NCBI RefSeq assembly: GCF_040436345.1
Contig: NC_133230.1
Span: forward strand, 9,992,197 to 10,056,196
DNA length: 64,000 nucleotides
Direction of reading: 5' to 3'
Source of the DNA: Pagrus major
Taxonomy: Eukaryota; Chordata; Actinopteri; Spariformes; Sparidae
The position numbers were made by a program, and so were the translations under genes. This document shows, piece after piece, positions 1,969 through 32,100 of this stretch; position 1 is the stretch's first letter; every line of letters starts with the position of its first letter. Under the pieces are notes generated by a model, which saw nothing but the letters and a program-made list of their open reading frames with translations, had not been told where the DNA came from and did no database searches.

Positions 1969-4900
1969 ATGAGAACGTTAATGTTGTTGCTTCTCTTCTG
2001 TCACGTTTCATCACCAGGTTAGATCACATTTTAAATCTTTAAACTCTTTAAACTTCACAGTCCACTCGACTCTTTGCTCCGACTTGAGTTTCACTTCCAG
2101 TGGAGTAGGCAGGAAACTATTTTGGGTGGGTCTGTGCAGAATGATGTGGGCCATCTTTATCCAGAACAAAAAAGGACTTGTAAGAACTTAGAAGTATCAA
2201 AAAGGACAAAGAGAGAGCATTTAACTTATTATTTAACTTATTACATCCTATTTAATTTAGGATATCATTCTGATGTGTTTGAGTTCAGCATTATTTCACA
2301 CACTTGTTGCTTTTCCCAAACTAGTTGTGGGCACAGATCCATCAAGCTTTCTCTCTCTGGTCGCAGCTGCTGATTTCATTTTTCTGCATCAGCTGTTCTG
2401 TTAGTTTCATAACTTGTTCAAAATCACACTCTGAATTGTCTCTAAACCGAGCATGGCTCTCTTTTAGTCCCTCAACTAGGTCAATCCACTCAGAAACTGA
2501 TAATGTTGGGCTTTGTAAACCCCGTGTGTCAAAATGGTTCAACTTAAATAATCCCCCAAATGTGACGAGTAAAAATCTAAACAGTTTTGTTTGTATTTGT
2601 TGGAGCAGGGACTGAGCCTCAACCTTTGTTTGACCTCTGCTTTCAACACACTCTGCGAACATTTCAACATTACATCATGTGACGTCAGATTTGTAGCTCC
2701 AGTGTGTGTCCATGTAGGGAGATGTGTGGTGATGATGAGTGTGTATTCATACTGAATGGAGGCTGTTTGTCCTGCACATTTTAAACTTTTGCATGTTGCT
2801 CCCGCGCAGCAAACACACACTTAGTTTCACTTTTACTCGCCTGTGTTTAGACTCAGAGTGAGATACATGATGAGACATGTTTATTCACAGTAGTGATTTG
2901 AGCTGACGGTTAACGCAAATTAAATGTACAAGCAACATACAACAATAATAGAAATGACTTTCGTTTGTCTGACGACCCACCATGACTCCTACAGAGCAAC
3001 ACAAGAAACTAGGAGGTGTGGGCCATCACACTTCTTTACGATGAGGCAGTTATAGAAGATGATCAGTTTTTTTGCCCTTTTCCACGATCAGAACAACTCA
3101 TGAACAGTAGAGGACTGAAAAACAACAGTCATTGAGAAACTTTACTGAAAGTCATTGCACAATAGCAAACATACAGTATGAAAGGACAAACCACAGTTCA
3201 TTTTATAACTTTCAAACTCAGTGTGTGTCTTCTAACAGTAAACTCACTTCACTACACCAACAAATGTTGGTGGTGGACACTGGTTTGTGACCTCTGTGTG
3301 TCTCTCAATGATGGTAGGGCTGATGTGAGCTTAAAATAATGCCACGATATTTGTAGTCTGTTTTACTACACAATATACATATCTTTATAATAATGTCCTC
3401 AACAGCACATTAATGCGAGGACTGGATAACTAAATGAAGTATCACAATATTCAAGTATTAGAACAAGTAGAACAGTCTGGTAAGTTCAGAAAATGACATC
3501 AAGTAATGTCGCCTTTAAAACCAGGAAAAGACAACACTTATATCATGATATAACAATATCCACAAGCTAAGATGACATATAGTCTCTTATCATAGTAACG
3601 GTGTAATATCAATATGTTGCAGCCATAAAGGATGCTCACGTTCATATTAGAAGGGGGAACCCGATAGTTAAAAGTACTTTGAGTGTAACTTCTCTTTAAA
3701 GTCTGTCCAAACACCAAAATGCTTCTCAGTAGTTGGTGGGCCGTACTGAACCCTGTAATGATAGAATAGGTAATAGATAAGTTAGATAAGAAGATTCATG
3801 CTGTAGATGGCAGGCCATAACCTTAAGTGTTACCATGACATCATATTTCTGATGAGTGTGATGATGATGTGTGTATTTATACTGAATGTATGAACCTCTT
3901 CTGTCCTGCAGTGAAACACTCCCTGAGGTATATCAACACTGCAACTTCTGGACTCTCAGACCTCCCAGAGTTTTTTTCAACTGCAATGGTTGATGGAAAT
4001 CTGGTGGCTTACTGCGACAACAGCAAAAAGATAATCGAATTAAAACACGACTGGGTGAAAAAAGTATTGGAAAATGATCCGGCACAGTTGGAGGACTACA
4101 ATTGGGGATGTTTTAAGTGGTTGCCATTTTTTTTCAATGACACAATCAATATTTTGAAACAGCGCTTCAACCAAAGTGGAGGTACAGTATGTACAATGTT
4201 ATATTTCACCTTTTACTTCATGAACTGTTCTTTATAATTATAAAAATAATTTAGTAAGATTTGTATCAGAAATATTTGGAATTGATGTTATCAGCCTCCC
4301 TGGGCTGAAAGAAAGTTTTCATCATGCACAGTGAAAAAGACTGAATACTTTACTGACTAATACTGCTTCAGGGGATGACTGGACCACAGAACATCTGATT
4401 GGTGTGCACATTGAAACACGAGGATCCAAGAACCTTTAAATCATTTATTGAGTTGGGAATGCTCCATCAGATGGATGGATGAATGACAGGATGGATGATT
4501 TCTGTACAACAGCAAATATAGATCAATATATATGAATACATGCCAAAACTAAGTAAGACAAAAAGTGCATGAGAACAAAGGTAGCTTACATTATTAATGC
4601 ATCCATGAAGGATGAGTCTTCTGTAATACACAATAACAATACACAATGATTGTGAATCTAAATATACACCATGAGCCATATTTACAGGGTTAAGCTTCTC
4701 ACAGGAGAGGAAGTAGGAATCAAACAACTCCAGATAATACACCACGGTCTGGTGGGAAGGCAGATACACATTATAAATACTGGCTGCATTTAAACATCAC
4801 TTAAAAGATATAAACAATACATCATCTGGATGCATGTACACATAACTTAAAGGATACAACAACAACGTATCAGGAACATGTTGGCAGAATAAGTTCAAAC

Positions 4901-7900
4901 AAACTAACATGTGGCAGCATGGTCTCACACAAAGAAACATACAGGACACACCCAGCATATATGTCCTCCCCTTACTAAACTCCTTCCCTGCACACAGGTA
5001 GGTGAATCTCTTCACCAGTCAAAGCCTCACACAACTGACGCTCGACTTGACATTTTTTTAACTCACAGACTATAACTATTATACTACACAACTAGAGAAA
5101 ACTGTTTTTGTGTTAGTCCTCTCTATAATAGTTTGGACTCAAACCAGGGACGCTGCATCACTGTTCATTGTTGGCATCTTAAACCTTAAAGTGATGAGGT
5201 GAGGTGTTTCTCTCTCTGTCTCTGTCTCAGGTGTCCACATTTTACAGAGGATGAATGGCTGTGAGTGGGATGATGAGACCGGAGAGGTTGTTGGTTATTA
5301 TCAGTATGCTTATGATGGAGAAGACTTCCTATCAGTCGACCTGAAGACAGAGACATGGATCGCTCCAAAACCACAGGCTTTCAACACCAAACTGAGATGG
5401 GATGCTGACAAAGCCGAAATTAATAAAATTCAGAATTTCCTCACAGTGATTTACCCTGAGTGGCTGAAGAAGTTTGTGGCCTCTGGGAGGAGCTCTCTGC
5501 TGAGAACAGGTAGAATCACATGACCTGATGTAGTTTAATGGACACAATCATGTTCATACAGTCTGCTCAGACTGAACTGCTGTTGTGTTATCACTGCAGT
5601 CAGTCTGACATTACATTGTTTTCTCTGTTTATTTTCTGTAGCTGTAAGATTTGATGTTGTCCTAACCAATCAGTAGACACTGACATTTTGGCTGTTCTGA
5701 AATTTCTTTCCATCAATGCTTAGACTGTGATAGCCAGTGTACACTTAGCATGAGTTTGAGGGCACACCTCTTTAAACAGATAGCTGGTTGAGGCGGCAGA
5801 TCATGGACTGTGATTCCGGTCAGAGAATCAAGGCACTTTGACAGAGAGATCTGATTTCACTCCTTTAATGAGGTTGTTGGAATCTACGTAACGTACAACG
5901 AATGTATGTGTGTAGGTGTGTGTGTGTGTGTGTGTGATAGATAACCAGCTTCTTCCAGCTTCCGGATCTCAGCGCAGTAAGACTCAGCTTGTGTGGGGTT
6001 CCTAGCTAGCTTCCGCTCTGTGCTACGAAGCCTGGGGAGTACTGCTTCCACAGGAGCATGGAGAGCCATGTCGGTCCTACGGCGCAGAAGAGGCATGGCA
6101 TAGCGTGAGATGCCACCTACTGTTACTCTAGTGGTGGCTGTCTGAAGCAGAGTAAGAGCTTGCTGGTCCTCCTTTGAGCGAGTGGCAGCCTTCTCACTGT
6201 AGGGCGAGGTGTCAATCTGCCAGAGGCGCTCCACGTTCCTGAGAAGCTCACTGGAAGCTGAGGCGGTGGCGACATGCAGGCATTGCTGGACCCCAGGTGA
6301 AAGATGGACAGTATCAACTGGCCCTTGAAGCGACCAGCCCAGCTTAGTACAGATGGCAACAGGTCCACCTGGTGGTCCTGCATGCACCGGTTGGACTGTG
6401 GTAATCAGGTGAGGCATGTCAGACCCGATAAGGAGCAAAGGTTGGGCACGGTTCACCGGTGGTAAGGGAAGCTCTCTGAGGTGTTTGTATTTCTGCTGCA
6501 GCATGGCAACTGGATAAGTGTGTTTGGTGAGAGCCAGTCCTTCTGCGGTGAAGGCGTTGGATATCTTGTGCTTCTCGGATGGCCGTAGTGGTGATGATAC
6601 CTCCAGGGAGACTGATGCACCATTGAGTTGCTTAACGCTTTGGTGCACAGTCTGCAGGGGTAGAGTCTCTGGATGGCAGACGAGGTTGAGCTGTTGCACC
6701 ACTTGAGGAAGGACAATGCTCCTCTCTGAGTCGTCATCGAGTACGGCAAAAGTCTCCATCCTTCGGTTGCCGTTATGGAGGAGGACCTTGACCACTTTAA
6801 GCATTACCCTTTGACGTCACCATATGGACAGTAAGGTTTAAGCTTGGATTTGGCCCTTGCCTGTGTAAGCTCTGGCCTGGTTGTCCCTTCCCTGTTTACC
6901 TTCTCAGTGGTATTGAAGCACCCAGTCAGCTTCTCTTTGGGTTGGACAATTCGCTGATCTTTCCTAGCCGGTCGGGGGGTCTCAGTCTGATACAGAGCTG
7001 CTGCTCGACTCGAGATGCGCTTTGCTTGAGACTTTGTTTGGAGCCAGGTAGCCAAGTCCTGAAGGGTGTAGGTCCTGTCGGTGCCAGTCTGCAGAATACC
7101 ATATCACAGGCAATGCTCAACAAAGCCATCGCGGTAGGTGGGAGGCATCTTACTTAGCAAGCAGTCCAAATGGGAGCCGCAGTGGAGCTCATATCCATTT
7201 TGTCCCTCAAGGGTCTTTAACATGCCTACCAAGGACTGGACGGACAAGGCGAATGAGTCGAAGGCGTTGGCGTCACCCATCTTAAGAGCAGGAGCATAGA
7301 GTATGGCACCTAGCTCGCTCTGGACCAGCTGTCGTGGCTGCCCGTACTTATCTTGTAGAGCCTGCAGTGCACTCGTATATGGTGTCGGGTCATGCATGTA
7401 TGCCTTGGCAAGCTGCAGTGCGCTTGGGAGCTTGATGTGTCCAATCAACACTTGATACTTATATTGCTCGCTAAGGTGAAGGTTGCTTCCCAGCACATTG
7501 TCTAGCGCAAGCTTGAGTAAAGCAAAGTCACTCTCCCGGCCACTCTCGAACACTGGTAGGGAAGGTCGAGGGATTCCAAGGGCTGTCGCAAGGAGTAACT
7601 CAGCTCCGGTTAGTGGTGCATAACCAGGGTAGGGAGCGTAGAAAACTGGAGCAGTCTGTTGCCCGTGGTGAGTCGAGAGGAGTGGTGGAGCTCTCTGGCT
7701 GGCATGCTGAGCAGTGTTAAGTGGCTCCATGGCTGGTCGGCTGTGGCTGTAAGCGGCTTGGTGCGCTGCTGAAGACTGGGACTCTACTGGATTGACTGGT
7801 GCTGGGCCACGAGGAACTTGTGACTTGAGAGATGATGCCACCTGAGCTGTCGTATGGGCTAAAGGTGCTGAGGTGATGACATGCACCGAGGGTGTGTCAC

Positions 7901-10504
7901 CGGTTGTATCACAGGAACAGGTGCTAACGCTGGGGCAGGTTGTAGTCTCACAGATCTAGATGCCATGGGTACTGGACCCTGGAGCTGTGCCGTCGGGTTT
8001 GCCAGGGGAGCTGGAATCGCTGGGGTGGCAGTAGGTTGCAGCATTGGCTGTGGTCCAGCAGGAGGTGCCATAGAGACTGGAATGACTCGTTGCCCCACTT
8101 GTGGGGGAGGAATACGCGGGCGCACTACTGGTGCGGGCATTGGATGTAACTGGGTTGACAGCTGGTAGGTAGATGACAGCATGTCAGCCTGTACTGGCGG
8201 TGGTAAGTCCAGGAAAAGGTTTGACTTGCAGGTGAGATGCAGGCGTCCTGCTATCAGAAAGCATCGACGAACGAAGCTTGGCGATCTCAAGGTCCTGTTC
8301 AGCTCTCGTTAAGCGCCGCTGTCTTTCTAGGCGCTTAGTGAGTGCTTCTCGGGCTTTGAGTGCCTCTTCTTGGAGCCGCTGTGCTTCTTTCGCTTGATCA
8401 TCCAGCAGTTTACACTCCAAGTCAGCTTGAGTCTCGTGCGTAATCGAACGGCGGATATCTTCCAGTTCCAACTGCTTTATTCTCTCTTCCATGATTGCAG
8501 CTTGTGCAGTTGAGAGACCCTGAGTGAGATACATACCAACAGAGTAATATGTGCGCCTACTAGATCTGCTATGAATGTACGAACTGCTGCTGGATGTCCT
8601 GCTCGGGTTGCTGCTATGGTGGCTGTAGGAGCGGGAAACAGTAGCATGTGGAGCTGGGTGCACGGATGGCTGGAATCCAACTTGGTAGTCCTCCAAGTAA
8701 GCAGGTAAGCGGTGGTCTCTCCGCGGATGGCTCCGGTGCTTGGAGGTGTCTGATGCTGCATTGTCCATGATCTTCTTATTTGGTTGCACTCAATCCGGCT
8801 CGAGGACCAATGTTTAAGGGCACACCTCTTTAAACAGATAGCTGGTTGAGGCGGCAGATCATGGACTGTGATTCCGGTCAGAGAATCAAGGCACTTTGAC
8901 AGAGAGATCTGATTTCACTCCTTTAATGAGGTTGTTGGAATCTACGTAACGTACAACGAATGTATGTGTGTAGGTGTGTGTGTGTGTGTGTGTGTGGTCT
9001 GAAAATAAAGAAAGAAAAAATCTGTATTACAATAATGCTTTACATGTTATTTAGCAGTTAAATCAAATACACATCTAAATAAGCTGCTATATGAACATAA
9101 TATTAACAGAGGCAAAGCAAGCTAAACAACAAGGGAACTTTAAATACTGACTTTTAACCACAGTAAACAATTCAACCTTTCCCATGTAAAATAACAAAAA
9201 CTGCAACAGTCCTCAAATTATCAATAATTACAAGCAGAAACAACTTACATCTCCTCAAGAACGCACACGTCATTAGCAAAACACAGAACGTCCATGCAGC
9301 CTCACACCTCTGCTCACTGACTGGTCTGCTGTTTTCCAGTGTGACTGGGTGTGTCCTGACTCGTCAGTTGTCCTGTCAGTTGTATCAGTAGAGGGTGCTG
9401 TCAGACCTTGACCTATAGGGCTTTCTTACAGCATGAGTTAAGTAAGTTTGCTCGGTCTCAGTGTTTCAAACTAGAAATAGTTTCACTGAACTCTCTCCAG
9501 AGCTTCCCTCAGTGTCTCTCCTCCAGAAGACTCCCTCCTCTCCAGTCAGCTGCCACGCTACAGGTTTCTACCCTGACAGAGCCTCACTCGTCTGGAGGAA
9601 AGATGGAGAGGAGCTTCATGAGGAGGTGGACCACGGAGAGATCCTCCCCAACCTCGATGGAACCTTCCAGATGCGTGTTGACCTGAACCTTTCATCAGTC
9701 ACACCTGAAGACTGGACGAGGTACGACTGTGTGTTTCAGTTCTCTGATGTGAAGAAGGAAATCATCACCAAACTGGAGAAAGATCGGATCAGGACCAACT
9801 GGGGTAAGAGTGAGATCAGAGGGTGCTGAAGGGGAGTGCATGGGAATTCATCTTGGAAAAAAACAGTAATAATAAACTAATTAATTGTTTTAATTTGCTC
9901 TAACCTGCTTCTTCTGCACCAGTCTTAATTTATTGTATTCAACAGTGAAGCCCAGTGACATGATCGTCCTCGTCACTGCTGCAGTGGTTGTTCTTGCTCT
10001 CATTCTCATCGGTGCTGCTGGATTCATCGTTTACAAAAAGAAGAAAGGTGAGAGAGAAAAAGGAAAGATTTCAGTCTTTGAGTTGATTTTTTTTTATTCA
10101 GGTTGCAAAATTAAAACCAGCATCAGAGAAAGTAAATACAGTCAGCACTAAACAGACTGAGTATAAACAGATACTCAGTCTGAGTGAGTAGAAGAGAGGA
10201 ATAAAGTGACTAAAGATAATCTGGCATTTACAACTGTGACTGAAATGATTTGTCTTTTGTTTTGATTTCAGCCATTCGCCCCCCATCTTGTAAGTAAAAC
10301 TTACTTTGGTTCTATTTCAGCTGATCTGACTCACACTTCATGTTTTAGATTAACAAATGTTTCACATTATTGTGCAGATGAACCTTTTCAACACTGTTTC
10401 CTGTATTTATTGTTTCTAAAAGTTCAATATGGGATGTTTGTTTCTGACCTGCAGCTCCTGACAACAGCGCAGAGTTCTCTGAGCAGCTGAATCCAGAGAC
10501 CTGA
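1969..10504 (+). CDS. MHC class I heavy chain, U lineage (class I A), 7 exons, about 356 aa
   Basis: Surface glycoprotein heavy chain, expected to pair with beta-2-microglobulin and display peptide or another ligand. Exons: leader 1969-2017; alpha-1 3912-4181; alpha-2 5231-5509; alpha-3 9501-9803; transmembrane 9946-10047; cytoplasmic 10272-10289 and 10455-10504 (stop TGA 10502-10504). All junctions are GT-AG and phase 1, and the sum is 357 codons. The leader has a Leu-rich core. Alpha-1 starts VKHSLRY (Tyr7 kept) and ends with the N-glycosylation site NQSGG. Alpha-2 has the fish signature [10 protein letters not shown] and keeps Cys101, but Cys164 is Tyr, Tyr159 is Phe and Tyr171 is Phe. Alpha-3 is a normal Ig C1 domain with cysteines in SCHATGFYP and RYDCVF. 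A hydrophobic helix is followed by YKKKK. Intron 4 is about 4 kb because it holds an antisense BEL/Pao element. Open and apparently functional, probably non-classical. Confidence 0.9.
2087..2098 (-). promoter_or_regulatory. ETS-IRF composite-like element in intron 1 of class I A
   Basis: The minus strand reads GGAAGTGAAACT, a match to the ETS-IRF composite/ISRE form (GGAA-NN-GAAA), 70 bp after the leader exon. A second ISRE-like site, AGTTTCACTTTT, lies at 2823-2834. Class I genes are normally interferon-inducible, so the position is sensible, but a 12-base match can be chance. Confidence 0.3.
2849..2972 (-). repeat. Stray copy of the class I C 3' end inside intron 1 of class I A
   Basis: This stretch matches 21730-21842, the 3' end of class I C including its minus-strand AATAAA. 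The common core runs from the GACTCAGAGTGAGATACATG region to GAAATGACTT with few differences. In A it sits in an intron in the opposite sense to the host gene. It is a relic of inversion or unequal exchange within the cluster. Confidence 0.65.
5747..5756 (+). repeat. Target-site duplication, left flank of BEL/Pao element
   Basis: AGCATGAGTT here is repeated at 9430-9439 right after the element. Class I B has the uninterrupted site (one AGCATGAGTT followed by AAGTAAG at about 18939-18955). This fixes the outer borders of the insertion. Confidence 0.75.
5757..5936 (-). repeat. Truncated 3' LTR of the BEL/Pao element
   Basis: Nearly identical to 8815-8995, starting at the AGGGCACACCTCTTTAAACA segment and ending in the TG microsatellite. 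Beyond 5936 it joins element coding sequence instead of the rest of the LTR, so about 430 bp of LTR is missing here. Confidence 0.85.
5884..6804 (-). pseudogene. BEL/Pao pol fragment: aspartic protease and N-terminal RT region
   Basis: A 306-codon open frame resembling the Pao-type retropepsin (DUF1758) and the start of the Pao reverse transcriptase. The active-site region reads [14 protein letters not shown], where the expected Asp-Ser/Thr/Gly triad context is recognisable but altered (DDS). Downstream are GSDMPHLI and [10 protein letters not shown], typical of the protease-RT spacer. The last part ([10 protein letters not shown] to LEEAGYL) is the RT N-terminus. The frame then runs into the LTR microsatellite as a run of His-Thr residues and stops. 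There is no catalytic RT core. Confidence 0.8.
7104..8789 (-). pseudogene. BEL/Pao gag-like region (coiled coil plus DUF1759), frame-shifted
   Basis: Three overlapping minus frames: 8789-8184 starts 16 bases after the primer-binding site and has a Ser/Arg-rich N-terminus and a charged coiled coil (about residues 90-170); 8290-7859 is Pro/Ala/Gln-rich; 7886-7104 holds a DUF1759-like capsid segment (from [11 protein letters not shown] to [10 protein letters not shown]). Frame changes near 8200 and 7870, and again near 7100 where the zinc-knuckle region would be expected, show decay or programmed shifts. The order matches BEL/Pao gag. Confidence 0.75.
8791..8809 (-). other. Primer-binding site of the BEL/Pao element
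   Basis: On the minus strand TGGTCCTCGAGCCGGATTG follows the LTR end after a few bases. It starts with TGG, as a sequence complementary to a tRNA CCA end should. I did not assign the tRNA. Confidence 0.65.
8815..9430 (-). repeat. Full-length 5' LTR of the BEL/Pao element
   Basis: About 615 bp from the inner border (shared with the truncated LTR) to the target duplication. On the minus strand it begins TGTAAGAAAGCCC and ends ...GTGTGCCCTTA. It contains a TG microsatellite at about 8970-8996. Confidence 0.75.
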
Positions 10505-12241
10505 ATGACAAACACACTCAGCGACTCTCCTGGTGACGCTTTATTTAGCTTTGCAGAACTAAAAGACAGTAAAAGATGGCTTCTTGCACTATAAGTACAG
10601 TTGTATAAAAAGGACTGATTGAAGAGGTGGGACTGTTCTATGTTCTATGACTCTGATTTGTTGTTTTATTTATTATCGTTTTTGTCCTCTAATGATGTAC
10701 AGCTGAGGTGATGCCAGATGATGCAGGTCTAATTATCATTAAGGAAGAGAGAGTTAGCAAAGCGCTACACCTCACCATGTGAAGAGACAGTAATGTAAGA
10801 TAGTTTGGTTTTGGGGCTTCTAAGACCTGTTTGTTGGTGTGCTGTCAGTTGTCTGTGTGGAGTAAATGGAAGTACTGAACCGTTTCTTTGTTCTTTCTGT
10901 TACAAATAGTTTGTTTTTAAGGAGTTGTTAATGAACAATTTAAGCTAAAAAGAGATGTTTCATTTGACCCGTATGAAATGATCAGACAGGCTACATCGGG
11001 CCTCTTCAACAACTTTTTCAGAAGGGCTGGATTTGAAAAAAAAATGAAGTGTCAAGGGGCCGGACTTTTTCGTTCCCTGTGTCTGAATTTGTGTTAAAAC
11101 ATGCACTTTTTTTTAAAAACTTTTTTCTCCACTTTGTTGTTATCTATGGTAAGACTAGTTGAACCAGACGGCAGTGGTGGTGTTTGGACTGCTCAGCGGG
11201 CCGTGGGATTCTCGTGAAGTTGCCAGTTGAACCAGTTTGGCCAGACAATGTAGTTTAGACTGAGCAGTTCCAGTGTAGATATAAGGCCGGGTCTTACTGC
11301 AGAGTTTCTGCTGTTTGTTGTTTGTTTGTTTGTTTGTTTGTTTGGCTGAGTGAAGGATTTAAAGGCAGCTTACAGATGTTTAGGTCAGGGTTAGAGAATA
11401 TTGTCTCCTGTTAGAGGGCTCAGTAGATTTGTAGTGGACCAGTCTGATACCCACTGCAGTTCAGTGACGGGTCGAAACGTCATTTAACATGAATACTGTG
11501 CAACCAACTGTTGGTACATTTTACTGTGTACTGATTGTTGATGAATTTTCATTAATCTTATAAACCCAGGTGAAGAAGCAGATTCAGGAGACATGAAGCC
11601 TTACGTTGAAGTGTTTGATGAAGCTCACTAGTTCGTCTTTACAGGTCGACTTTAGTTACAAACTATTGTAACTCTAACTTTACAACTTGTACATTGATGA
11701 GTTTATAGAAAACGTGTATAGTAATTGTGTAGTAAGACACTTAGTGGTGGTGACGTTTAAGTCAGGACTGTGATGTCGTCTGTTTATAGTCTAACATTAG
11801 CTTTTTACTAATAGAGATTTAATTTAATCACAAAAGTTGTGTTCATCTGTGAAGATTATTTTGACGAACAAAACATGTAAGAATCATAAACTTGTGTTTG
11901 ACACAGATAATATTTTTGCTGATATTCCAAAATTCAATTCAAAAATCTCATAGACTTCTTGTGGAGGGAACCAGGTCGATGCTAACTTCAGGGTTAGCCT
12001 CCAAAAACATGTTATTGCAGCACCACTCTATAGATGGAGAATATGGAGTTTGGTCTATCATGGAGCCAGTGCGTCTCTCGTATGAGCGGTGAGCAGAGTG
12101 GGAGATGTATATCCACAAATTTACAACTATGAACTTATGAGACTAAACATGTAAATTCCTTTACATTGATGAACATGAATGAATGTTAAACCCAAATGTG
12201 TTGTTCTTTCTTTTTGTGCTGATGTTTGTCTTTTCAATAAA
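10505..12241 (+). other. 3' UTR of class I A with polyadenylation signal
   Basis: There is no coding potential in the stretch after the stop codon. A (TTTG)n tract sits at about 11318-11344. AATAAA at 12236-12241 is conserved at the equivalent place in class I B (21404-21409) and is the likely polyadenylation signal, though earlier signals cannot be excluded. Confidence 0.6.
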
Positions 12242-12285
12242 ATCCTCACATTTTAAAAAGTTTGGTCCACATGCTCATTTGTGAC

Positions 12286-12540
12286 GACACTTCAAGAGGT
12301 ACCCTGAGAGAAAATGATTAAATGTTACTATATAATACTGTTTATATGGGTTTATTACATTTATTTCAGCTGGTAAAGTGTCCTGATGTGGGGCTTTAAA
12401 TGTATTGCTGCTGTTAATATTTGTATGGTTAATGTGGCGAATAACTCCAGAATGTCCTATGTTTTGAAAGGCCTTTGAACGCCTCAGGTCTCTGTTACTC
12501 GGGTTCTCATTTGTTTGGGCAGCTGTCAATCATTTTCTCT
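12286..12540. other. Intergenic, start matches sequence downstream of class I C
   Basis: About 12294-12340 matches 21848-21894 (GGTACCCTGAGAGAAAATGA and onward). This is another patch shared within the cluster, indicating a rearrangement breakpoint at about 12290. No gene seen. Confidence 0.5.
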
Positions 12541-13031
12541 GTTATTGGGGATTAACCTGTCGGATTGTTAGAGGGGCGGGACTAGAGGGAAAGCGAGGGA
12601 AACGAGGAGAGAAAGAGCTGCGGAGAGAAGCGGAAAGACGTTAAGTCAGAGCAAACTGTCAGATAACTTCATGGAAAAGTGTTATTTACCGTCATCAAGC
12701 GGAAGTTTATGCGAGTGTTTGCTTGTTTTGTTAAGAGTGTAACCGAGCGTGTTGTAGAAGTGACGGCTCGTTACTGGCGCAAGCTGAAGACCGCGATGGG
12801 ACTGTTGCTAGCTGTTAGCATCGCTAGCTGTTAGCATCGCTAGCTGCTAATCAGGAGACGCCGCGGACGAGGTTGGACGTTGGACGTTGCCGCGGCTGCT
12901 GCAGGACGGAGGAGTCGGTGACGGACCGAGCCTCGGGACAGGACCGAGCCTCTGGACGGGTCTGTGGTCACGTCGCTGCCTCTGGGAAGAGGTTTTGGAG
13001 GAAATTGCTGGATCGCTTCTCCGTGGTTCGG
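12541..13031 (+). promoter_or_regulatory. CpG-rich island with orphan first exon
   Basis: GC- and CpG-rich against AT-rich surroundings. It has an inverted CCAAT (ATTGG, about 12544), a GC box GGGGCGGG (12573-12580) and an ETS-type GCGGAAGT (12699-12706). Two tandem copies of GCTAGCTGTTAGCATC lie at about 12810-12850. It ends at a consensus splice donor, G|GTGAGTAT, after 13031. The only ATG in the exon (12796) is closed after 12 codons, so the exon would be non-coding. I found no downstream exon that I can join to it. It may be the promoter of an unrecognised transcript or a remnant of a lost gene. Confidence 0.5.
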
Positions 13032-13159
13032 GTGAGTATCCTGACCTGCGGTTTCAAGGTGGATTTCTATATGAGCTCCAGCTGCCGCCATCACTGGTAC
13101 CGACTGAAACACTACACAAACCCCGGGCTGTTACTATGTAGAAGGTTCCTCATGTGACT

Positions 13160-14300
13160 GTATTTCTTGGTTATGAGGTGATTCAAAACAATTAACATAA
13201 CATAACTTAACATTAAAACTGTTTATTATTGCTAAATCCCTAAATTTTAGTAGCTCTCATCAATTCACTCCCATGCAGTCTGATACATAAAGGGGGTATT
13301 CATGAAAATCATAAAACAGAGTTGAGTGAGAGGGCTACAATAGAAAATGTCTTTATACAGTATAGACATTTACTTCTTTATATGATTAAATGTGTTGCAA
13401 CAAAAGGGACAAAAACACATTTTAAAAAGATAATCATCTCAGGTGTGTTTACTCCTCTGAGACCGCTCCTCTTTATGAAACGGTTCTCTAAACACAATTC
13501 TTTAAAAAGAAAGTAAATAATATTACATCAATTCAAACAAAGGCAGTGAGTCGCTGTAGGTGTATGATGCTATAAGACCAGAGCTGTGTTAAAATATGTT
13601 CAGATGAGTTTAAGTGAAGTCCGTCTGTGTTAGAATATAAGTTGATATATCCAATGTAAAGTTTGTCTGGACTTGAAAGTGAAAAAGCCTGTTTTTACAG
13701 TTTGACACTGGTCCAGTGTTAAAGTCCTCCTCAGCCACTGAAACAGATTTACATTGTGTTTTGATACTGTACCTGTCAAAGACAAAGCCGGGCCAGTCCA
13801 AACCGGCACTGATGCTTCTCTGTTTCGCTGTTAGGCTGTTTGATATTATGAAACTCTGTCAACATAAAGTGAAAAATGGGACTGTTCACTGTGGAGTGAG
13901 GCAGATTTTGAATGCATACAGGTAACAAAATGTCAGGTAATATAAGAAAAAATAAGACAAACCATTATTACTTTTACATTTTAAAGAAAAGCTTTTCTAC
14001 CAGCCAGTTTCCATTCTGAACTCACTCAGTTAATTCAGTTGATCTCATGCTACAACTGAAGGGTGGCGTAATAAAGACAAAGTTCAGACACACGTACATT
14101 AATGTGTTAAGTTGTCCTTCATGAAGTTGAACTGACATCAAATAATGTTTAACACCTCTATCTATATCTACATCTATATACACCTCTATATCTGAAACTA
14201 CATTATTTGAGTACAAGAACTTCAATTTATTTTGAGTTTACAAAGACCAAAGACCACAGGAAAACCTTCTGCAGAAGTTTTACCCCTGTCTAAACCTCTC
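13160..14300. other. Intergenic, no gene seen
   Basis: AT-rich, with only short chance open frames and no splice context. No repeat family recognised apart from a short TCTATATCTA tract at about 14158-14190. Confidence 0.5.
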
Positions 14301-14455
14301 ATCCCCACTGGGGGGAGCTAAAGACACAGTGAGGGAAGGAAGGAGGCGTGTTATCCAAATAGAAAACACTTCCTCCCTTTAGTCGCACCGTGAAGACTCA
14401 ACTCCACTGACTGAACTCAGCTGTTAAGTGGATGAAACTTACTTCTCATCAGAAC

Positions 14456-16082
14456 ATGAAGATCTTCATTCTTTTGCTTCTCTCGAGCCACTTTGCATCT
14501 TCAGGTAAGATAACTTTCCTTGAATTACTTCCTGAAAGCAGTTTATGAAACACAGAACAGTTCAGCAGTAAACTAGTGACCTGAAGATGGAGGCTGCCAT
14601 CTTTATATTTCAGATCAACGAGTCTGCCCAGCTCAGGGTTCAGATAATATGAAAATGAATTAGGATGTGCCTCTATAGCTCCTAAATAACTTTGATTTGT
14701 GTTTAACTTTGGAACAAGCACAGATCCAAGTCTATTGTCAGGAACATACTGTAGTCCTAAAGCCTGTATTACTGTGCTGTGTTACTGGAGGCTGTATGTT
14801 GTAAGTGTGGGGTAAAACATAGGAGACAGATGACTTCAGACATCATACCAGCATTTTACTACAGTTTTAATATCTGAATATGTCACAGACATGAAAACAC
14901 TCTCTTTCTTTTACTTTCACTTTATCTCCGTCACTCCCTCTCCTTCCCCCTCCGGCTATCTCGCTCTTTCAGCAGGGTAAAAACAAATTACGTCATCATA
15001 TGTTTCTATAATTATCAAAGTCAAACTCCATGTTAACAGACAGAGCAGGCAGGAGCAACGCAGCTGCCACACAGTACACAGGCATCCAGTGTGTCCAGCC
15101 TGTTAGGTGGTTCAGGTAGATGTGGACTGACATTGTTGTTACACAGAGTTCTTTGTTTTTTATGGAGTGCAGGAAGAAGAAAAGCTTCTTTATGATGAGG
15201 CAGTTCAAGATAATTAATTTTATTGCCCTGTCACAGGATCAGAACAACTGTCATGAACAGTAGAGGACTGAAAAACAACAGTCATTGGGAAACTTTAGTG
15301 GAAGTCATGGCACAGTAGCAAACATACAGTATGAAAGGACAAACCACAGTTAATTTTATAACTTTCAGACTCAGTGTGTCTCTTCTAACAGTAAACTCAC
15401 TTCACCAACAAATGTTGGTGGTGGACACTGGTTTGTGACCTCTGTGCGTCTCTCAAGGATGGTAGGGCTGATATGAGCTTAAAATAATGCCACGATATTT
15501 GAAGACTGTTTTACTACACTACTACTACTAATATATATATCTTGATATTTAAAAAAATGTCCTCAAAAGCACATTAATGCGAGGACTGGACAACAAAATT
15601 AAGTATCACAGTATATTTAACTAAATACCTTGATATCAATATTGCAACAATATTAACACAATGAGATTTCTGATCAATAATCATCAGTAATGTGGATATA
15701 ATGATGACGTGGGTTAGGGGTGGGCGATATGACGATATTAAATCGTGAACGATTACAACGTGAAGACGATCTGCCAAAGTGCAGAGATCATAGGGATCGT
15801 CTAGGGCACATTCTATAAATTGCAGTTCTATGCTGATGCACCGACGCACCAAACGTTTTACGTCGTCAACCTGACCGACCAATCATAGTGAATGACGGGC
15901 AGTGACACGCTTTCTTACCTGCCTCCTTGTTTTTGTGTGTAGCAGTAGCCGCATGGAGAGCGATGGCTGAAAGCCAAACGGAGGAGTTGGTCGCTTTTTA
16001 AAACAAAACAAAAACAGCATTTCACCATCTCTCATCTCTGCCAGTTAGCCCCTCCACCTGCTGCCTCTCTCGGGTGCGCGCG

Positions 16083-16127
<45 letters not shown>

Positions 16128-19100
16128 GCGCATGGATAGGTCGCGCTTGGCCGCTAATAAACGGTAAATGCGCTAATTGTACAGTGTTCAAATTACCACC
16201 ACCCCCCCACCCCCCCATCGGATAGTCCGACCACTGACGGACCCTTTTCAATAAGCTATTTAGGGTTTTGATGTACTTAAATCCTGTTAAAATGACTGTG
16301 TTGAATAAAACAAACAGTAATGTATTCATTGATATTTTACTTTCATGTTTATTGAAAGCTACCTTTTATGTTGCAAGAGTACACTTTATCAGAGTGTTGT
16401 TTACCTTTTAGTATGTTTACGTTGTTTGCACATGTTGGCAAAACTGCAACTATTTAAATTAAAATCTGTTCAAAAGGTTCTTTGGCCTAAATTGTCTGTT
16501 TTTCTTTTTTTGATTTAAGATCGTGATAAAATCGAAATCGTGATTTTATTTTTTAAAAATCGTGATATATTTTTGCCATATCGCCCACCCCTAACATGGG
16601 TGAAGACAAGTATTAGAACAAGTAGAACAGTCTGGTAAGTTCAGAAAATGACATCAAGTAATGTCGCCTTTAAAACCAGGAAAAGACAACACTTATATCA
16701 TGATATAACAATATCCACAAACAAGATGACATATAGTCTCTTATCATAGTAACGGTGTAATATCAATATGTTGCAGCCATAAAGGATGCTCACGTTCATA
16801 TTAGAAGGGGAACCCGATAGTTAAAAGTACTTTGAGTGCAACTTCTCTTTAAAGTCTGTCCAAACACCAAAATGCTTCTCAGTAGTTGGTGGGCCGTACT
16901 GAACCCTGTAATGATAGAATAGGTAATAGATAAGTTAGATAAGAAGATTCATGCTGTAGATGGCAGGCCATAACCTTAAGTGTTACCATGACATCATATT
17001 TATGATGAGTGTGATGATGATGTGTGTATTTATACTGAATGTATGAACCTCTTCTGTCCTGCAGTGAAACACTCCCTGAACTATATCTTCACTGCATCTT
17101 CTGGACTCCCAGACTTCCCCGAGTTTGTTGCAGAAGCAGTGGTTGATGAAAATCTGTTGGTTTACTGTGACAACAGCAAAAAGATAATCGAATTACAACA
17201 TGACTGGATGAAAAAAGTATTGGAAAATGATCCTCACCAGTTGGAGCAGTACAAAGGATCGTGTTTTAAGTGGGACCCACCTTATTTCAAAGCCACAATC
17301 AATATTTTGAAACAGCGCTTTAACCAAAGTGGAGGTACAGTATGTACGATGTTATATTTCACCTTTTACTTCATGAACTGTTCTTTATAATTATAAAAAT
17401 AATTTAGTAAGATTTGTATCAGAAATATTTTGAATTGATGTTATCAGCCTCCCTGGGCTGAAAGAAAGTTTTCATCATGCACAGTGAAAAAGACTGAATA
17501 CTTTACTGACTAATACTGCTTCAGGGGATGACTGGACCACAGAACATCTGACTGGTGTGCACATTGAAACACGAGGATCCAAGAACCTTTAAATCATTTA
17601 CTGAGTTGGGAATGCTCCATCAGATGGATGGATGAATGACAGGATGGATGATTTCTGTACAACAGCAAATATAGATCAATATATATGAATACATGCCAAA
17701 ACTAAGTAACACAAAAAGTGCATGAGAACAAAGGTAGCTTACATTATTAATGCATCCATGAAGGACGAGTCTTCTGTAATCCTTCACTGTGATTCTGTTA
17801 TTCAAAACAAAAAGTAAATACACAACAACAATACACAATGATTGTAAATCTAAATATACGCTGTGAGCCATATTTACAGGGTTAAGCTTCTCACAGGAGA
17901 GGAAGTAGGAATCAAACAACTCCAGATAATACACCACGGTCTGGTGGGAAGGCAGATACACATTATAAATACTGGCTGCATTTAAACATCACTTAAAAGA
18001 TATAAACAATACGTCATCTGGATGCATGTACACATAACTTAAAGGATACAACAACAACGTATCAGGAACATGTTGGCAGAATAAGTTCAAACAAACTAAC
18101 ATGTGGCAGCATGGTCTCACACAGAGAAACATACAGGACACACCCAGCATATATGTCCTCCCCTTACTAAACTCCTTCCCTGCACACAGGTAGGTGAATC
18201 TCTTCACCCAGTCAAAGCCTCACACAACTGATGCTCGACTTGACTTTTTTTAACTCACAGACTATAACTATTATACTACACAACTAGCGAAAACTGTGTT
18301 TGTGTTAGTCCTCTCTACAATAGTTTGGACTCAAACCAGGGACGCTGCATCACTGTTCATTGTTGGCATCTTAAACCTTAAAGTGATGAGGTGAGGTGTT
18401 TCTCTCTCTGTCTCTGTCTCAGGTGTCCACATTTTACAGAGGATGACTGGCTGTGAGTGGGATGATGAGACTGGAGAGGTTGTTGGTTTTAATCAGTATG
18501 GTTATGATGGAGAAGACTTCATATCAATCGACCTGAAGACAGAGACATGGATCGCTCCAAAACCACAGGCTGTCATCACCAAACTGAAATGGGATGCTGA
18601 CAAAGCTAGAATGAAGTACAATCAGAATTTCCTCACAGTGATTTTCCCTGAGTGGTTGAAGAAGTTTTTGGACTATGGGAGGAGCTCTCTGCTAAGAACA
18701 GGTAGAATCACATGACCTGATGTAGTTTAATGGACACGATCATGTTCATACAGTCTGCTCAGACTGAACTGCTGTTGTGTTATCACTGCAGTCAGTCTGA
18801 CATTACATTGTTTTCTCTGTTAGTTTTCTGTAGCTCTAAGATTCAATGTTGTCCTAACCAATCAGTACACACTGACATTTTGGCTGTTCTGAAATTTCTT
18901 TCCATCGATGCTCAGACTGTGATAGCCAGTGTACACGTAGCATGAGTTAAGTAAGTTTGCTCAGTCTCAGTGTTTCAAACGAGAAATGGTTTCATTGAAC
19001 TCTCTCCAGAGCTTCCCTCAGTGTCTCTCCTCCAGAAGACTCCCTCCTCTCCAGTCAGCTGCCACGCTACAGGTTTCTACCCTCACAGAGCCTCACTCTT

Positions 19101-19968
19101 CTGGAGGAAAGATGGAGAGGAGGTGGACCACGGAGAGATCCTCCCCAACCACGATGGAACCTTCCAGATGAGTGTTGACCTGAACCTTTCATCAGTCACA
19201 CCTGAAGACTGGACGAGGTACGACTGTGTGTTTCAGCTCTCTGGTGTGAAGGAGGACATCATCACCAAACTGGAGAAAGATCGGATCAGGACCAACTGGG
19301 GTAAGAGTGAGATCAGAGGGTGCTGAAGGGGAGTGCATGGGAATTGATCTTGGAAGAAAACAAAAACAGTAAAAATAAACTATTATTGTATTCAACAGTG
19401 AAGCCCAGTGACATGACCGTCCCCGTCACTGCTGCAGTGGTTGTTCTTGCTCTCATTCTCACCGGTGCTGCTGGATTCATCGTTTACAAAAAGAAGAAAG
19501 GTGAGAGAGAATAAGGAAAGATTTCACTACTTTGATTTCAGTCTTTGAGTTGACTTTTTTATTTAGGATGCAAAATTAAAACCAGCATCAGAGAAAGTAA
19601 ATACAGTCAGCACTAAACAGACTGAGTATAAACAGATACTCAGTTTGAGTGAGTAGAAGAGAGGAATAAAGTGACTAAAGATAATCTGGCATTTACAACT
19701 GTGACTGAAATGATTTGTCTTTTGTTTTGATTTCAGCCATTAGCCCTCCATCTTGTAAGTAAAACTTACTTTGGTTCTATTTCAGCTGATCTGACTTACA
19801 CTTCATGTTTTAGATTAAAAAAGTTTCACATTATTGTGCAGATGAACCTTTTCAACACTGTTTCCTGTATTTATTGTTTCTAAAAGTTCAATATGGGATG
19901 TTTGTTTCTGACCTGCAGCTCCTGACAACAGCGCAGAGTTCTCTGAGCAGCTGAATCCAGAGACCTGA
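14456..19968 (+). CDS. MHC class I heavy chain, U lineage (class I B), 7 exons, about 352 aa
   Basis: Tandem duplicate of class I A with the same role expected. Exons: leader 14456-14504; alpha-1 17065-17334; alpha-2 18423-18701; alpha-3 19010-19300; transmembrane 19399-19500; tail 19737-19754 and 19919-19968 (stop TGA). All phase 1, total 353 codons. The leader [16 protein letters not shown] differs from that of A. Alpha-1 has Tyr7, an NQSGG glycosylation site and the same Cys35/Cys67 as the other two genes. Alpha-2 keeps Cys101 (GCEWDD), Thr143 and Trp147, but Cys164 is Phe, Tyr159 is Phe and Tyr171 is Phe. Alpha-3 lacks four residues next to GEE relative to A (12-base in-frame deletion), in a loop before the VDHGEILPN strand. 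Helix and tail are nearly the same as in A. Open and apparently functional, probably non-classical. Confidence 0.9.
15715..16593. mobile_element. hAT-like non-autonomous element (MITE) in intron 1 of class I B
   Basis: Terminal inverted repeats: the left end TAGGGGTGGGCGATATG is mirrored at the right end (CATATCGCCCACCCCTA). It is flanked by 8-bp direct repeats, ACGTGGGT (15707-15714) and ACATGGGT (16594-16601), one mismatch, as for hAT transposons. The interior is 0.85 kb without a transposase frame and includes an AC microsatellite. Absent from class I A, so it is younger than the duplication or was lost there with a local deletion. Confidence 0.8.
16086..16125. repeat. (CA)n microsatellite
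   Basis: About 20 CA units inside the hAT-like element, preceded by an alternating GCGCGCGCACGC tract. The stretch has Z-DNA-prone alternation. Confidence 0.9.
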
Positions 19969-22529: not shown

Positions 22530-24692
22530 CTGAGTGAGGAGTCGGCAAAATCACATCTTTTCATATCAGTCATTAGTTATTAGTTGCTTGTCCAAAATAG
22601 TTACTGTTAAGTCAGTACCCTGAAATACAGATGAGAGAAAACAATGTAAAAAAATTATTAACATTTCAGAATTTATAAAACGAGAGAAAAGACTATCCGG
22701 TTGGGATTAGGAGGAGTAAAAGTATCTTTGTTCCTCACCATAATTGTTTCTTCTCCAGATGAAGCATGCCGCAATGCAAAGCAACAGGAGGATCAGCAGT
22801 GCTACAATGACTCCAATAATCACATGGAGTCTTATGGGAGGATCTGGAACCAAAACAGAACATTCACACTTTGAGTCCTTTCACATTGGTGCAATTTATC
22901 GAGCCATGCTGTTGGTTCTGGGAGAGTTTTCATGACCTTTTGGATAATCCTTATCAGTAACAACACCTTACCTTCTCATTTATTCACCGGCAGAAATCTG
23001 TCAAGTGACAGTCATCATCACAGCTTGCTTGTTGTCATCACAAATCATGTCATCACAGCAAACAGAGTACTTATAAACGGCAACATGTTGGTGTCAGCTG
23101 CTCCACACTCTTCTTCCTTGTTCTTGATGCATGGGCTTACTAAATTACCATTTCACTGTAGTGCATTGTACATGTGAAAAGCCATCAAATTCTGCCTTCT
23201 GTCTTCTAAATGTGGCTGCAGTTGCACAAGGTTTTAAAAATGTATGTCAGGTTTTTCAAAATGTCACAGTCATTCATACTGTAGACGAATAGTTCAACGT
23301 ATCACAAATGATGTTTCAGGAAGTGCAGCAGCAGCAGCAGCAGCAGCAGCTCATGGGGTAAGATGCAAACCACAAACCACAACGTCTCCAGTCTGAGTGT
23401 GACAGGGACGTTTGCTGCATCTCTTTCTCACTTCCTGTCATCTCAATGTCTCTTATTTAAAAACTGCACAAAATGCCCCCTGCAAAAAGAAATTCTCCTG
23501 ATGTCATGAGACATAGCATAGGATTTGTTTTCCACCAAATTTCAAAATGCAATATTTGAGATACCCTTCTATGTAACACACAACATATCCTTGACCTTGA
23601 TCTCACTCTTACCCCAGTTGGTCCTGATCCGATCTTTCTCCAGTTTGGTGATGATGTCCTCCTTCACACCAGCGACCAGAAACACACAGTCGTACCTCGT
23701 CCAGTCTTCAGGTGTGACTGATGAAAGGTTCAGGTCAACACTCATCTGGAAGGTTCCATCGTGGTTGGGGAGGATCTCTCCGTGGTCCACCTCCTCATGA
23801 AGCTCCTCTCCATCTTTCCTCCAGACGAGCGCGGCTCTGTCAGGGTAGAAACCTGTAGCGTGGCAGCTGACTGGAGAGGAGGGAGTCTTCTGGAGGAGAG
23901 ACACTGAGGGAAGCTCTGCAGAGTAAAGAGAAGGGGAAGGGTTATATGTATATGTGCTATATGTATCAATATAAGAATAGACAAGATTACAGGAGAGACA
24001 AGATGAAGATATATCAATTTTATACATCATGACGGTCAATGCTGCAACAACAGATTGTGCGAAAAAATCCAGGTACAGAAATAAGGACAGGACAATGAGC
24101 CCTGACACACAGCAAAAACTGCTCAGGAACAGCTTCCCAATCTGACCCCACCCCCAAAATTACAGGACCCAAAGGATCCACTAAAAACGTCCTGGTGTCA
24201 GACACCCAGTGGTGCCAGACCCCAGAGTTCATACGACCAGGCCTTGACAGGTCAGAGCTGTTTTGGTAGAAGATGAAGCAGGTGGTTTAAATGCTGCGGC
24301 TGATCGGTGTTTGTCTATACCATCATTTTCATTGGAACGTTATTGTGCATTAGAAACAGCACATGAATGCTACGTCCACTGACAACAGCACATCAGGTCA
24401 GGTGATTCTACCTGTTCTCTGCAGAAAGCTCCTCCCATAGTGCACGTACTTCTTCAGCCACTCAGGGCATATGTGGATGTAGTAGTTTTTGTTGTGTTCT
24501 AATCTAGCTTTCTCAGCATCCCATCTCAGCTTGGTGATGACAGCCTGTGGTTTTGGAGCGATCCATGTCAGTGTCTTCAGGTCCAATACTATGAAGTCTT
24601 CTCCATCATAACCATACTGGTTAAAACCAATAACCTCTCCGGTCTCATCATCCCAATCACAGCCGTTCATCCTCTGTAAAATGTGGACACCT

Positions 24693-28995: not shown

Positions 28996-29151
28996 TTAAA
29001 GGGATTTCTACGTACTATTCCTTCACTATAGAGCGTCCCTCTGTATGAAATCACACTCAGCTGTGGTGAGTATTGTTTAATCATCAGACAGCCTGCAAGT
29101 TTTCATTTACTTTATGTCTTCTTCACTTTTCTCTTCGTCAGAGGCGATAAT

Positions 29152-32100
29152 ATGGGTTGTGTACATCTGCTGGCACTGACGGCGGTCACATATGCAGTAC
29201 TCCTGTTAGCCTTCCACTCAACTGACGCTCATAGCCATTCCCATGACGACCATGGACAAGGCCACGGCCACCATCACCACGGCCACCATCACCACGGCCA
29301 CTCCCACGGAGAAGACGATAACTCTCAGGTGAAGATGTTCCACGGAGCGAGCAAGTGGAGCGCCGAGGCCAACCTCCCTGTGGAAGAGGAGGAGCATCAC
29401 GGCCACGCACACGCTCATGATCACGGCCACGCACACGCTCATGATCACGGCCACGCACACGCTCATGATCACGGTCACGCACATTCTCATGATCACGGCC
29501 ACGCACACGCTCATGATCACGGACACGCACATTCTCATGATCACGGACACGCTCATGGGGAGGATTTTATTCGGGTGCACAAGGAGGAGAGTGGACATGG
29601 AGAAGAGAGGGTGAAGAGGGAGGCAGAGAAGAGGGACGTGATGGAGCTCTGGATGCAGGTAAGGTCTGATTGAACTGTGTCCATGAATAAGTAAACTAGA
29701 CTTTGGGTATTATTGGGTGTTAGTATTTTACCTGGGGTGTTACTCAGGCATGTCTGTCTGGTGAGACTTCAAGATGTTACAGCCAAGAAAGAGACTTTCA
29801 CACTTGGGTTTCTTCAGGGATTAAAGAACTGAGATATAACCCGTTAGGTAGTCATCTTAAAAGGTGCTAGTAGGTGGATCTCGCTACTTCCAGCTTCATG
29901 TTTAACAGGCGAATATAAGAGTGGTATTGATCTTCTCGTCTCACTCACAGCCTTGATACAGTACAATGTAATTGAGTGTAATTCAGCTCAAATGTATTGT
30001 TTTATTAACTCTCATCATCAGAAGTAAATCAGCCTTTTTCCACAGTAGTAAAACCGACAGACAGTGACGTGTCTCCAGTCTGATGACGATCTTTAAAGAA
30101 AAATAAACTTCCCTCCATCCCATGTCTCTCCAGGCCATTGGAGCGACGCTGCTGATCAGTGCGGCTCCTTTCCTCATCCTGTTTCTGATCCCGGTTCAGT
30201 CCAACAGCGACCAGCACCAGAACCTGCTCAAGGTGCTGCTCAGCTTCGCCTCAGGCGGACTGCTGGGTGACGCCTTCCTCCACCTCATCCCGCACGCTTT
30301 GGGTAGGTCTTCAATCCGTAGTAGTCTGGTTTTTCACTTTCTCTATCTGGTTGTTTTTTTCTCTCTCTGTTTAAGTTCATAAGTTACCTCCTCCATCTGA
30401 AATGTAGGCTAACTTTGTGTTTCATGTGTGTTTCATGTTTTTGTGTCGTATGTTTCCTGCACAGAGCCTCACTCTCACCACGGAGAAGATCACGGACACT
30501 CGCATGAAAGCGAAGAGTCACATGACCACGGTCACTCCCACGGTACGCAGTCACTGCCTTTACTCTTGTTATTGACAGCAGGTTCATCCTAAAAGTGCAA
30601 AAATCAACCAAACAAATCTAGAAAAGCAATTTTATCCATCAAACTCTGTTCACGTATCCTCTGTCTGCACAGGAGCCGCTCACGGTCACATGATGTCAGT
30701 GGGTATGTGGGTTCTCGGTGGACTCATCGCCTTCCTGGTTGTAGAAAAATTTGTGCGTCTGCTGAAGGGAGGGCACGGCCACGGACACTCACACGGACAC
30801 TCACACGGTACGCTGCTGAAAACTCATCTTCTGTTTTCATTATAAAAATGCCACAAGAATATTTATCTACAACAGCAATATTTCTTCACAACTGAAAATG
30901 TAATTTTAGCCAGTATGTTGACCACAGTGGCCTCTGTAATCTCAGTTACTGATCTGATCTGAGGCTAATTTGACCTTTTCAGATGCTCCCAAAGAAAAGG
31001 ACAGTGATGGAGAAGAAGAAGAAAAGGAAAAGAAGAAAGAGAAGAAAGGAAGCAAAGATGAGAAGGTGCCAAAGAAGGAGGAGAAGAGCGCAGGTGAACA
31101 ATGCATTTATTTTTATAGACGTGCTGCGATCGGAAGCAAAATAGATCAACTCCACCGCTCGTCTGCTTTGATTGGCTGTAGCTCGTACCAGGGGAATAGA
31201 TGCCACTAAACCCTACAGACTGGACCTTTGAGTGAAAGTAGCAATACTGTAGAAATCTGTGTAGAAATCTGTTCAGTCAAAGTCCTGCTGTGTGGACAGT
31301 ATTATTTAACACAAGCATCTGGTTGATCAATCCTTCATAAACCTGTCGGGGCAGAATCTTGTAATTGTGCTGCTTCCTGTGAGATGTGTTGTTCCTTTAA
31401 ATTCACATATATGTGCTGCTGGCATCATGGAAATCTTTCTGATTAGAGCTGCAAAGATAAATGTCCAAAATTTGCCCTGCTGTAGACCTGACCCAGTGTG
31501 CTACAGCCTCACCTGTGTGTTTATACACTCTTAACTAACGCCTGTTATGCTCCATTTTCAGACATCAAGGTGTCCGGTTACTTGAACCTGGCAGCTGACT
31601 TCACACATAATTTTACTGACGGCCTGGCGATAGGAGCGTCGTTCCTGGTCAGTCCAGCGGTCGGCGCCGTCACCACCCTCACCATCCTGCTGCATGAGGT
31701 CCCACACGAGATCGGAGACTTTGCCATCCTCGTCCAATCTGGCTGCACCAAGAAAAAGGTAGCTGACTACTCGAGCTGTAGCTGTGACGCATGGATCGAT
31801 ACAACATCCTTTATTTGTTAAGTTGTCTTTACTCTGATGACAGCAGTTTGTTATTAATCATTCATGCGCATCTCACTGTGCTCTAAAATACACAAGGCGT
31901 TCAGAGCAGCGTTTCTTAATGATTCTGAGTAATACTTAGACAAGCAGCTCTCATCAGCATTTAAGTCTTGCAGCATACAGACAGCTCTTGTTTTTGCTTG
32001 TTGTTACTGTCTATTACAACTGATTTCTGGGACAAACAGGACAGGATCCTGGATTTGGGACAGCCGCTCGTAGTTTGGGACTATACTGCATTTATCCAGG

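Follow-up and report, generated by a model that had tools for sequence, protein, structure and literature searches.

The alpha-2 domain of class I molecules of the major histocompatibility complex (MHC) is held by a disulfide bridge between Cys101 and Cys164. The four cysteines of the alpha-2 and alpha-3 domains are described as common to nearly all class I molecules (PMC2846915), MHC-like folds generally contain the alpha-2 bridge (PMC9013968), and the relevant passages of PMC8236899 present it, under the name pb11-pb74, as well conserved in both class I and class II. A 2015 survey of teleost class I genes (PMC4364491) likewise treats the alpha-2 pair as conserved across most MHC molecules, and the sections considered here report no loss of it. 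The same sections describe a further pair of cysteines, C36 and C67, in the alpha-1 domain of the P lineage and of some U lineage genes; these two positions are close together on the human leukocyte antigen (HLA) molecule HLA-A2, so that a bond between the sheet and the alpha-1 helix is possible. Here we report class I genes of Pagrus major that have the alpha-1 pair and have lost Cys164. The window, that is the whole stretch of 64,000 nucleotides analysed (C16:9992197-10056196 in a genome of 786 Mb and 25 contigs), contains three complete class I genes within its first 26 kb, A and B on the forward strand and C on the reverse strand.

At site 164, A encodes Tyr (TAC), B Phe (TTC) and C Cys (TGC). 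HMMER alignments with the solved chains 5h5z, 7edo and 7cpo place the Tyr of A opposite a cysteine and its GCEW opposite the other cysteine. The first-pass annotation had reported this loss for 5231-18701, which runs from the first base of the A alpha-2 exon to the last base of the B alpha-2 exon, and both codons and alignments bear it out. It had also stated that Cys101 is retained in A and B within GCEWDD, and this is the case (NGCEWDD in A, TGCEWDD in B); Cys101 is kept in C as well, however in the motif NGCDWDD and not in GCEWDD. A cysteine that has merely moved to a nearby position is ruled out for A and B, where Cys101 is the sole cysteine of the alpha-2 domain; C has both cysteines of the bridge. 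Not mentioned in the annotation was the pair Cys36 and Cys67, which is present in the alpha-1 domains of A (3912-4181), B (17065-17334) and C, with one residue more in A than in C after Cys67. The groove cysteines of A are residues 35, 67 and 101 of the mature chain and correspond to HLA positions 36, 67 and 101, numbered by hand alignment to what we take to be the HLA-A2 sequence.

Loss of Cys164 is not a peculiarity of two genes, as the annotation had presented it. A genome search with Pfam MHC_I gave 75 exon matches, of which 61 were alpha-2 by position; all 61 were read and aligned and 58 were counted, excluding L062 (cut short) and L064 and L065 (too divergent). L001 to L008 are repeats of L009-L011 and L013-L016 and were counted once, 17 of the 61 genes are represented by their alpha-2 exon alone, and two long Pfam matches that end before site 164 (C5:42144961 and C1:19727100, profile positions 1-136 and 1-135) were left out; the census is a lower bound. 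Cys164 is missing in 43 of the 58 alpha-2 exons and is replaced by Tyr (22), Phe (19) or His (2) and by no other residue. Without five exons at C3:1-45 kb and one of two identical copies on C19, the count is 37 of 52. More than half of the lost exons (27 of 43) lie in a single cluster at C3:3.15-3.48 Mb. Cys164 is kept in 15 exons, namely in C, four classical-looking genes at C16:10.35-10.38 Mb, L013, L035, L045 and seven more on C3 (three genes at 0.29-0.31 Mb and four Z-like ones at 1.05-1.12 Mb), where "classical-looking" and "Z-like" are labels derived from anchors and distance and not from a named reference sequence. When the alpha-2 alignment was run against viral contigs, 36 pattern matches and no relative came up.

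Cys101 is retained in 38 of the 43 genes that lack Cys164 and is gone from five (Val 3, Leu 1, Tyr 1), compared to none of the 15 that keep it, a difference that is not significant (Fisher p 0.31). When only genes with a readable alpha-1 are considered, all 30 lost ones have both Cys36 and Cys67, compared to 4 of the 11 that keep Cys164 (C, L013, L035 and L045). Overall, both cysteines occur in 35 of 35 family alpha-1 exons, which are otherwise highly variable. In a simple script test, 27 of the 30 lost genes with readable alpha-1 had all three ectodomain exons open with AG/GT sites; two of the remaining three have no alpha-3 in the fetched stretch, and one (L030) fails at the alpha-2 donor.

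An alpha-2 DNA tree from which codon 164 was excluded divides the lost genes into two groups, the A/B group with 23 rows (support 94/94) and a second group with 21 rows (100/100), to which L045 also belongs; near them, with weak support, stand C and L013. Presence and loss of Cys164 require at least three changes on this tree and four on a quick protein tree, and a single loss, with the 44 rows constrained together, is not rejected (approximately unbiased test, p 0.41). L045 (alpha-2 at C3:3471291) has Cys at 164 and is nested within the lost group; as the tree is rejected when L045 is put outside the lost set (p 8e-5), the gene has regained the cysteine or obtained it by conversion. An extra helix cysteine eight residues before site 164 is found in four genes of the second group (L041, L055, L061 and L045). 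C, L013 and L035 have both pairs, and therefore the alpha-1 pair is probably older than the loss of Cys164.

From the different aromatic residues in A and B, the annotation had suggested that site 164 continued to change after the loss, and the genome-wide data agree: Tyr, Phe and His interchange at least nine times within the lost set on the alpha-2 tree and ten times on the protein tree. With the Cys rows included, well supported branches force at least four changes of the label Tyr and at least four of the label Phe. In a random single-base model, about 1 in 6 changes from Tyr would lead to Phe, and fewer from Phe to Tyr. Staying within the Tyr/Phe pair would have a probability of about 1e-4 for 7 of 9 changes and about 8e-4 for 4 of 4, both counts being illustrative and both probabilities assuming mutation and not a shuffling of existing variants by conversion. 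That only aromatic residues took the place of Cys164 suggests selection in favour of a packed ring and not free drift.

Between A and B, 42 of 270 alpha-1 bases (15.6%) and 24 of 279 alpha-2 bases (8.6%) are different, compared to 35 of 1757 in the surrounding noncoding DNA (Fisher 1e-18 and 2e-7, respectively); the intron between the alpha-1 and alpha-2 exons of A (4182-5230, forward strand) is 1.6% different from that of B (17335-18422). From the 190 pairs among 20 A/B-group genes, we kept 81, including A with L029, in which introns differ by less than 6% over more than 300 bases. Introns of these pairs differ by 0.9-5.4%, alpha-1 exons mostly by 8-19% and alpha-2 exons mostly by 5-12%, with the exceptions of A with L029, L038 with L034, and the alpha-1 of L014 with L037. 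Pooled nonsynonymous (dN) and synonymous (dS) divergence was 0.145 and 0.118 for alpha-1, and 0.096 and 0.054 for alpha-2, with noncoding divergence at 0.023. For A and B alone, dN and dS are not significantly different (p 1.0 and 0.79), and synonymous divergence differs from noncoding divergence with p 2e-5 in alpha-1 and 0.03 in alpha-2. Since dS is raised too, it seems that recombination homogenised the introns while leaving the differences between exons in place; amino-acid selection alone would not produce such a rise in dS. Diversity in the A/B group is concentrated at the sites that we take, from a list of HLA groove positions, to line the groove, with 1.35 versus 0.71 bits elsewhere in alpha-1 (21 genes, p 0.0004) and 1.09 versus 0.42 bits in alpha-2 (22 genes, p 0.0001). 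Judged from these comparisons of sequences, the groove of the family is under diversifying selection.

The eight classical peptide anchors (Y7, Y59, R84, T143, K146, W147, Y159, Y171) are incomplete in both genes and read Y Q R T R W F F in A and Y Q R T K W F F in B. Tyr59, which holds the N-terminus of the peptide, is absent from all 34 family genes in which alpha-1 and alpha-2 are readable, and Arg84 and Thr143 are missing as well from the ten genes of the second group in which alpha-1 can be read. Because Tyr7, Arg84, Thr143 and Trp147 are kept, A and B probably still bind a ligand. In a tree without named U, S, L, P and H references, A and B group with the classical-looking genes of the same genome, apart from the Z-like genes (100/100). 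They have the cysteines at 36 and 67 known from teleost U and P genes with an alpha-1 pair, and they lack the complete alpha-2 pair that is conserved in the P lineage. The family behaves as class I and is probably of U type, yet without the alpha-2 bridge.

Among described systems, the teleost U genes with extra alpha-1 cysteines come with the same domain plan and, in some cases, the same C36 and C67, and large polygenic U expansions like the one in Pagrus major are described for tilapia, stickleback and cod (passages in PMC4364491). The P lineage, which we compared by its description in the same source, resembles the A/B family in its conserved C36 and C67, missing peptide anchors and altered Tyr59 region; unlike A and B, P genes keep the alpha-2 cysteines (PMC4364491). 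In addition, the alpha-2 of A and B groups with that of the classical-looking genes of the same genome and their alpha-3 is nearly the same. Those classical-looking genes (C16:10.35-10.38 Mb; L009-L011) have a very similar alpha-3 and a related alpha-2, but they keep Cys164, keep the peptide anchors where these were read, and have no alpha-1 pair. The bridge missing from the whole expanded family is the pb11-pb74 bridge mentioned above, and the other ancestral pair, pa11-pa74, is located at positions other than C36 and C67 according to the part of PMC8236899 considered. The same bridge has been broken in the laboratory with the HLA mutant C101S, which lost stability and function (Warburton and others, cited in PMC2900293); in the A/B family it is the partner cysteine that has changed, to an aromatic residue, and a second cysteine pair is present. 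Our literature search turned up no fish class I family described as lacking Cys164, the additional files of teleost surveys not being covered, and single sequences without Cys164 may well lie unremarked in databases. Low-expression HLA alleles in which the alpha-2 bridge is broken were looked for as well, with no usable result. The mouse RAE-1 platform is not known to have the alpha-2 bridge; the passages of PMC9013968 and PMC3972465 neither confirm nor deny its absence there.

What is observed, then, is that two related groups of paralogues lack Cys164, with the site held to Tyr, Phe and rarely His, and that the extra alpha-1 cysteine pair of the family is invariant. We consider it somewhat probable that A and B belong to a nonclassical, lineage-expanded U-type family in which a packed aromatic residue replaced the alpha-2 bridge and the alpha-1 pair is the remaining staple between helix and floor. 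By homology, the lost 101-164 bridge and the 36-67 pair would flank the same N-terminal end of the groove from opposite sides. A Cys36-Cys67 bond would pin the alpha-1 helix to the groove floor and could thereby take over as staple. The ring at 164 would pack over Cys101 and fill the space of the lost bond, with Cys101 staying as a buried, reduced thiol or drifting to Val, Leu or Tyr. With Tyr59 gone, the pocket for the peptide N-terminus is remodelled, and the ligand is perhaps a peptide that is held differently at its N-terminus.

Several points weigh against this explanation. All data come from one genome and one assembly. AlphaFold2 models of the isolated alpha-2 and alpha-1 exons reached a mean predicted local distance difference test score of only 35.5 and 49.3, so that neither the packing nor the bond has structural support. 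Since C, L013 and L035 retain both pairs, the alpha-1 pair does not force the loss, and since the link between pair and loss stems from one or few events, it is a weak test of compensation. The 81 close pairs are not independent. With exon dS exceeding intron divergence, recombination and exon exchange also shape the pattern, and Tyr and Phe could in part have been shuffled rather than mutated. Site 164 itself is the 12th most variable of the 92 alpha-2 sites in the A/B group, although it contains aromatic residues only.

It is possible in principle that the groove holds no ligand and that the family serves as ligand of natural killer (NK)-type receptors, with its variation arising from receptor or pathogen contacts on the outer surface. 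The missing Tyr59, the additional absence of Arg84 and Thr143 in the second group, and the shortening of B at the presumed CD8 loop would suit such a role; the Arg84, Thr143 and Trp147 retained in A and B and the concentration of diversity at groove sites speak against it, and we regard it as unlikely. Slightly less likely still is a function of the free Cys101, either in A and B dimers linked by a disulfide, as the annotation had suggested, or in a form of these proteins that is sensitive to redox state. Cys101 is indeed kept in most of the lost genes, and alpha-2 cysteines, C164 above all and possibly C101, are involved in heavy-chain dimers of HLA-B27 (according to passages in PMC9359109). 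By homology, however, Cys101 sits beneath the alpha-2 helix, where it would be buried, and its replacement in five lost genes, which is not a significant excess, is ill-suited to an essential dimer cysteine.

The odd number of three groove-domain cysteines in A and B might suggest that the disulfide was rewired, with Cys101 paired to Cys36 or Cys67. L037 and L048 nevertheless keep Cys36 and Cys67 with Tyr or Val at 101, and C has the alpha-1 pair beside a normal Cys101 and Cys164; the alpha-1 pair is therefore independent of the lone Cys101, and rewiring is improbable. Least credible of all is that these are decaying pseudogenes with a neutral loss. The incompletely kept anchors, the failing donor of L030 and a transposable element in an intron of A could be taken as decay, but a neutral loss fits poorly with aromatic-type residues in all 43 cases, with open exons and proper splice sites in 27 of 30 genes, with a pooled dN 4-6 times the noncoding divergence, and with variation concentrated at groove sites.

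Each of the three genes forms one open spliced frame with AG/GT at every internal junction, and each follows the class I domain plan, with alpha-1, alpha-2 and a C1-set alpha-3 on separate exons and a transmembrane segment. Gene A (1969-10504, forward strand; matching Pfam MHC_I and C1-set) has 357 codons including the stop in seven coding exons: 1969-2017, 3912-4181 (alpha-1), 5231-5509 (alpha-2), 9501-9803 (alpha-3), 9946-10047 (transmembrane), 10272-10289 and 10455-10504. Gene B (14456-19968, forward strand) has 353 codons including the stop in exons 14456-14504, 17065-17334 (alpha-1), 18423-18701 (alpha-2), 19010-19300 (alpha-3), 19399-19500 (transmembrane), 19737-19754 and 19919-19968. 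Gene C (25597-22612, reverse strand) has 337 codons including the stop and consists, from high to low, of 25597-25549, 25060-24794 (alpha-1), 24690-24412 (alpha-2), 23915-23613 (alpha-3), 22843-22739 (transmembrane) and 22619-22612. Its transmembrane exon (22612-22843 with the tail) is different from those of A and B, and it ends in a very short tail, WRRNNYGY. The class I exons match MHC_I and C1-set; on their own, the alpha-1 exons of A and B fall below the cut-off. By sequence, the closest solved chain to the A alpha-2 exon is the class I antigen 5h5z, which we take to be from grass carp.

The alpha-3 exons of A, B and C (9501-9803, 19010-19300, 23613-23915) contain the alpha-3 disulfide cysteines (RYDCVF being one of the two motifs) and are nearly identical, with a dS of 0 to 0.016, beside strongly divergent alpha-1 exons (50 of 88 residues differ between A and C); this is domain-wise homogenisation. 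The alpha-3 of B is four residues shorter than those of A and C, at what we presume to be the CD8-contact loop, and among the U-type alpha-3 exons listed only B lacks these residues. Truncated alpha-1 pieces resembling the second group are located upstream of the full alpha-1 exon in six A/B-group genes (L014, L030, L034, L037, L038 and L039) and are a sign of exon exchange.

The exons at C3:1-45 kb (L021, L029, L033, L046 and L053) are collinear, in inverted order, with C16:9.966-10.01 Mb, and this part of C3 may be a second, perhaps misplaced, haplotype. L046 and L047 are 99.3% identical over 6.5 kb, L029 and A 98.5% over 6.5 kb, and L021 and L019 99.2% over 3.4 kb with a poorer match beyond; L033 is 93.5-96.7% identical to parts of A and B. 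L033 is a B-like copy with Tyr rather than Phe at 164 and a mixture of A-like and B-like flanks. The transposable element of A occupies 5754-8994 in the intron between alpha-2 and alpha-3; its 183-bp terminal repeats (5754-5936 and 8812-8994) are 99.5% alike, of three open pieces that were scanned, one has a DUF1759 match above the cut-off, and L029, the near-copy of A, has most of it. DUF1759 is usual in BEL/Pao elements. Further along the window, there are open frames at 31492-32698 with matches to the ZIP zinc transporter family, which were judged SLC39A7-like from a neighbouring His-rich frame at 29032, which has no Pfam match. A frame at 52661-53050 matches chitin synthase and a chitin synthase-like frame at 47661 is below the cut-off; this vertebrate thus has chitin synthase frames (47661-53050) close to both class I genes and a ZIP transporter.

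Tentatively, and with considerable doubt, the family might represent a large, diversifying class I repertoire in which the fixed disulfide of the groove has moved from the alpha-2 to the alpha-1 side of the pocket for the peptide N-terminus. The aromatic plug would then let loading bypass the redox step at Cys101-Cys164 (the ERp57/tapasin step), so that these molecules would present different ligands, or do so at another site, than the classical-looking genes about 0.35 Mb away. About forty genes without a normally conserved bridge and apparently under diversifying selection provide natural material on what this bridge does, be it for folding, for ERp57/tapasin loading or for the shape of the groove. 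Tyr, Phe, His and one returned Cys at a single site in similar genes offer a ready set for comparison.

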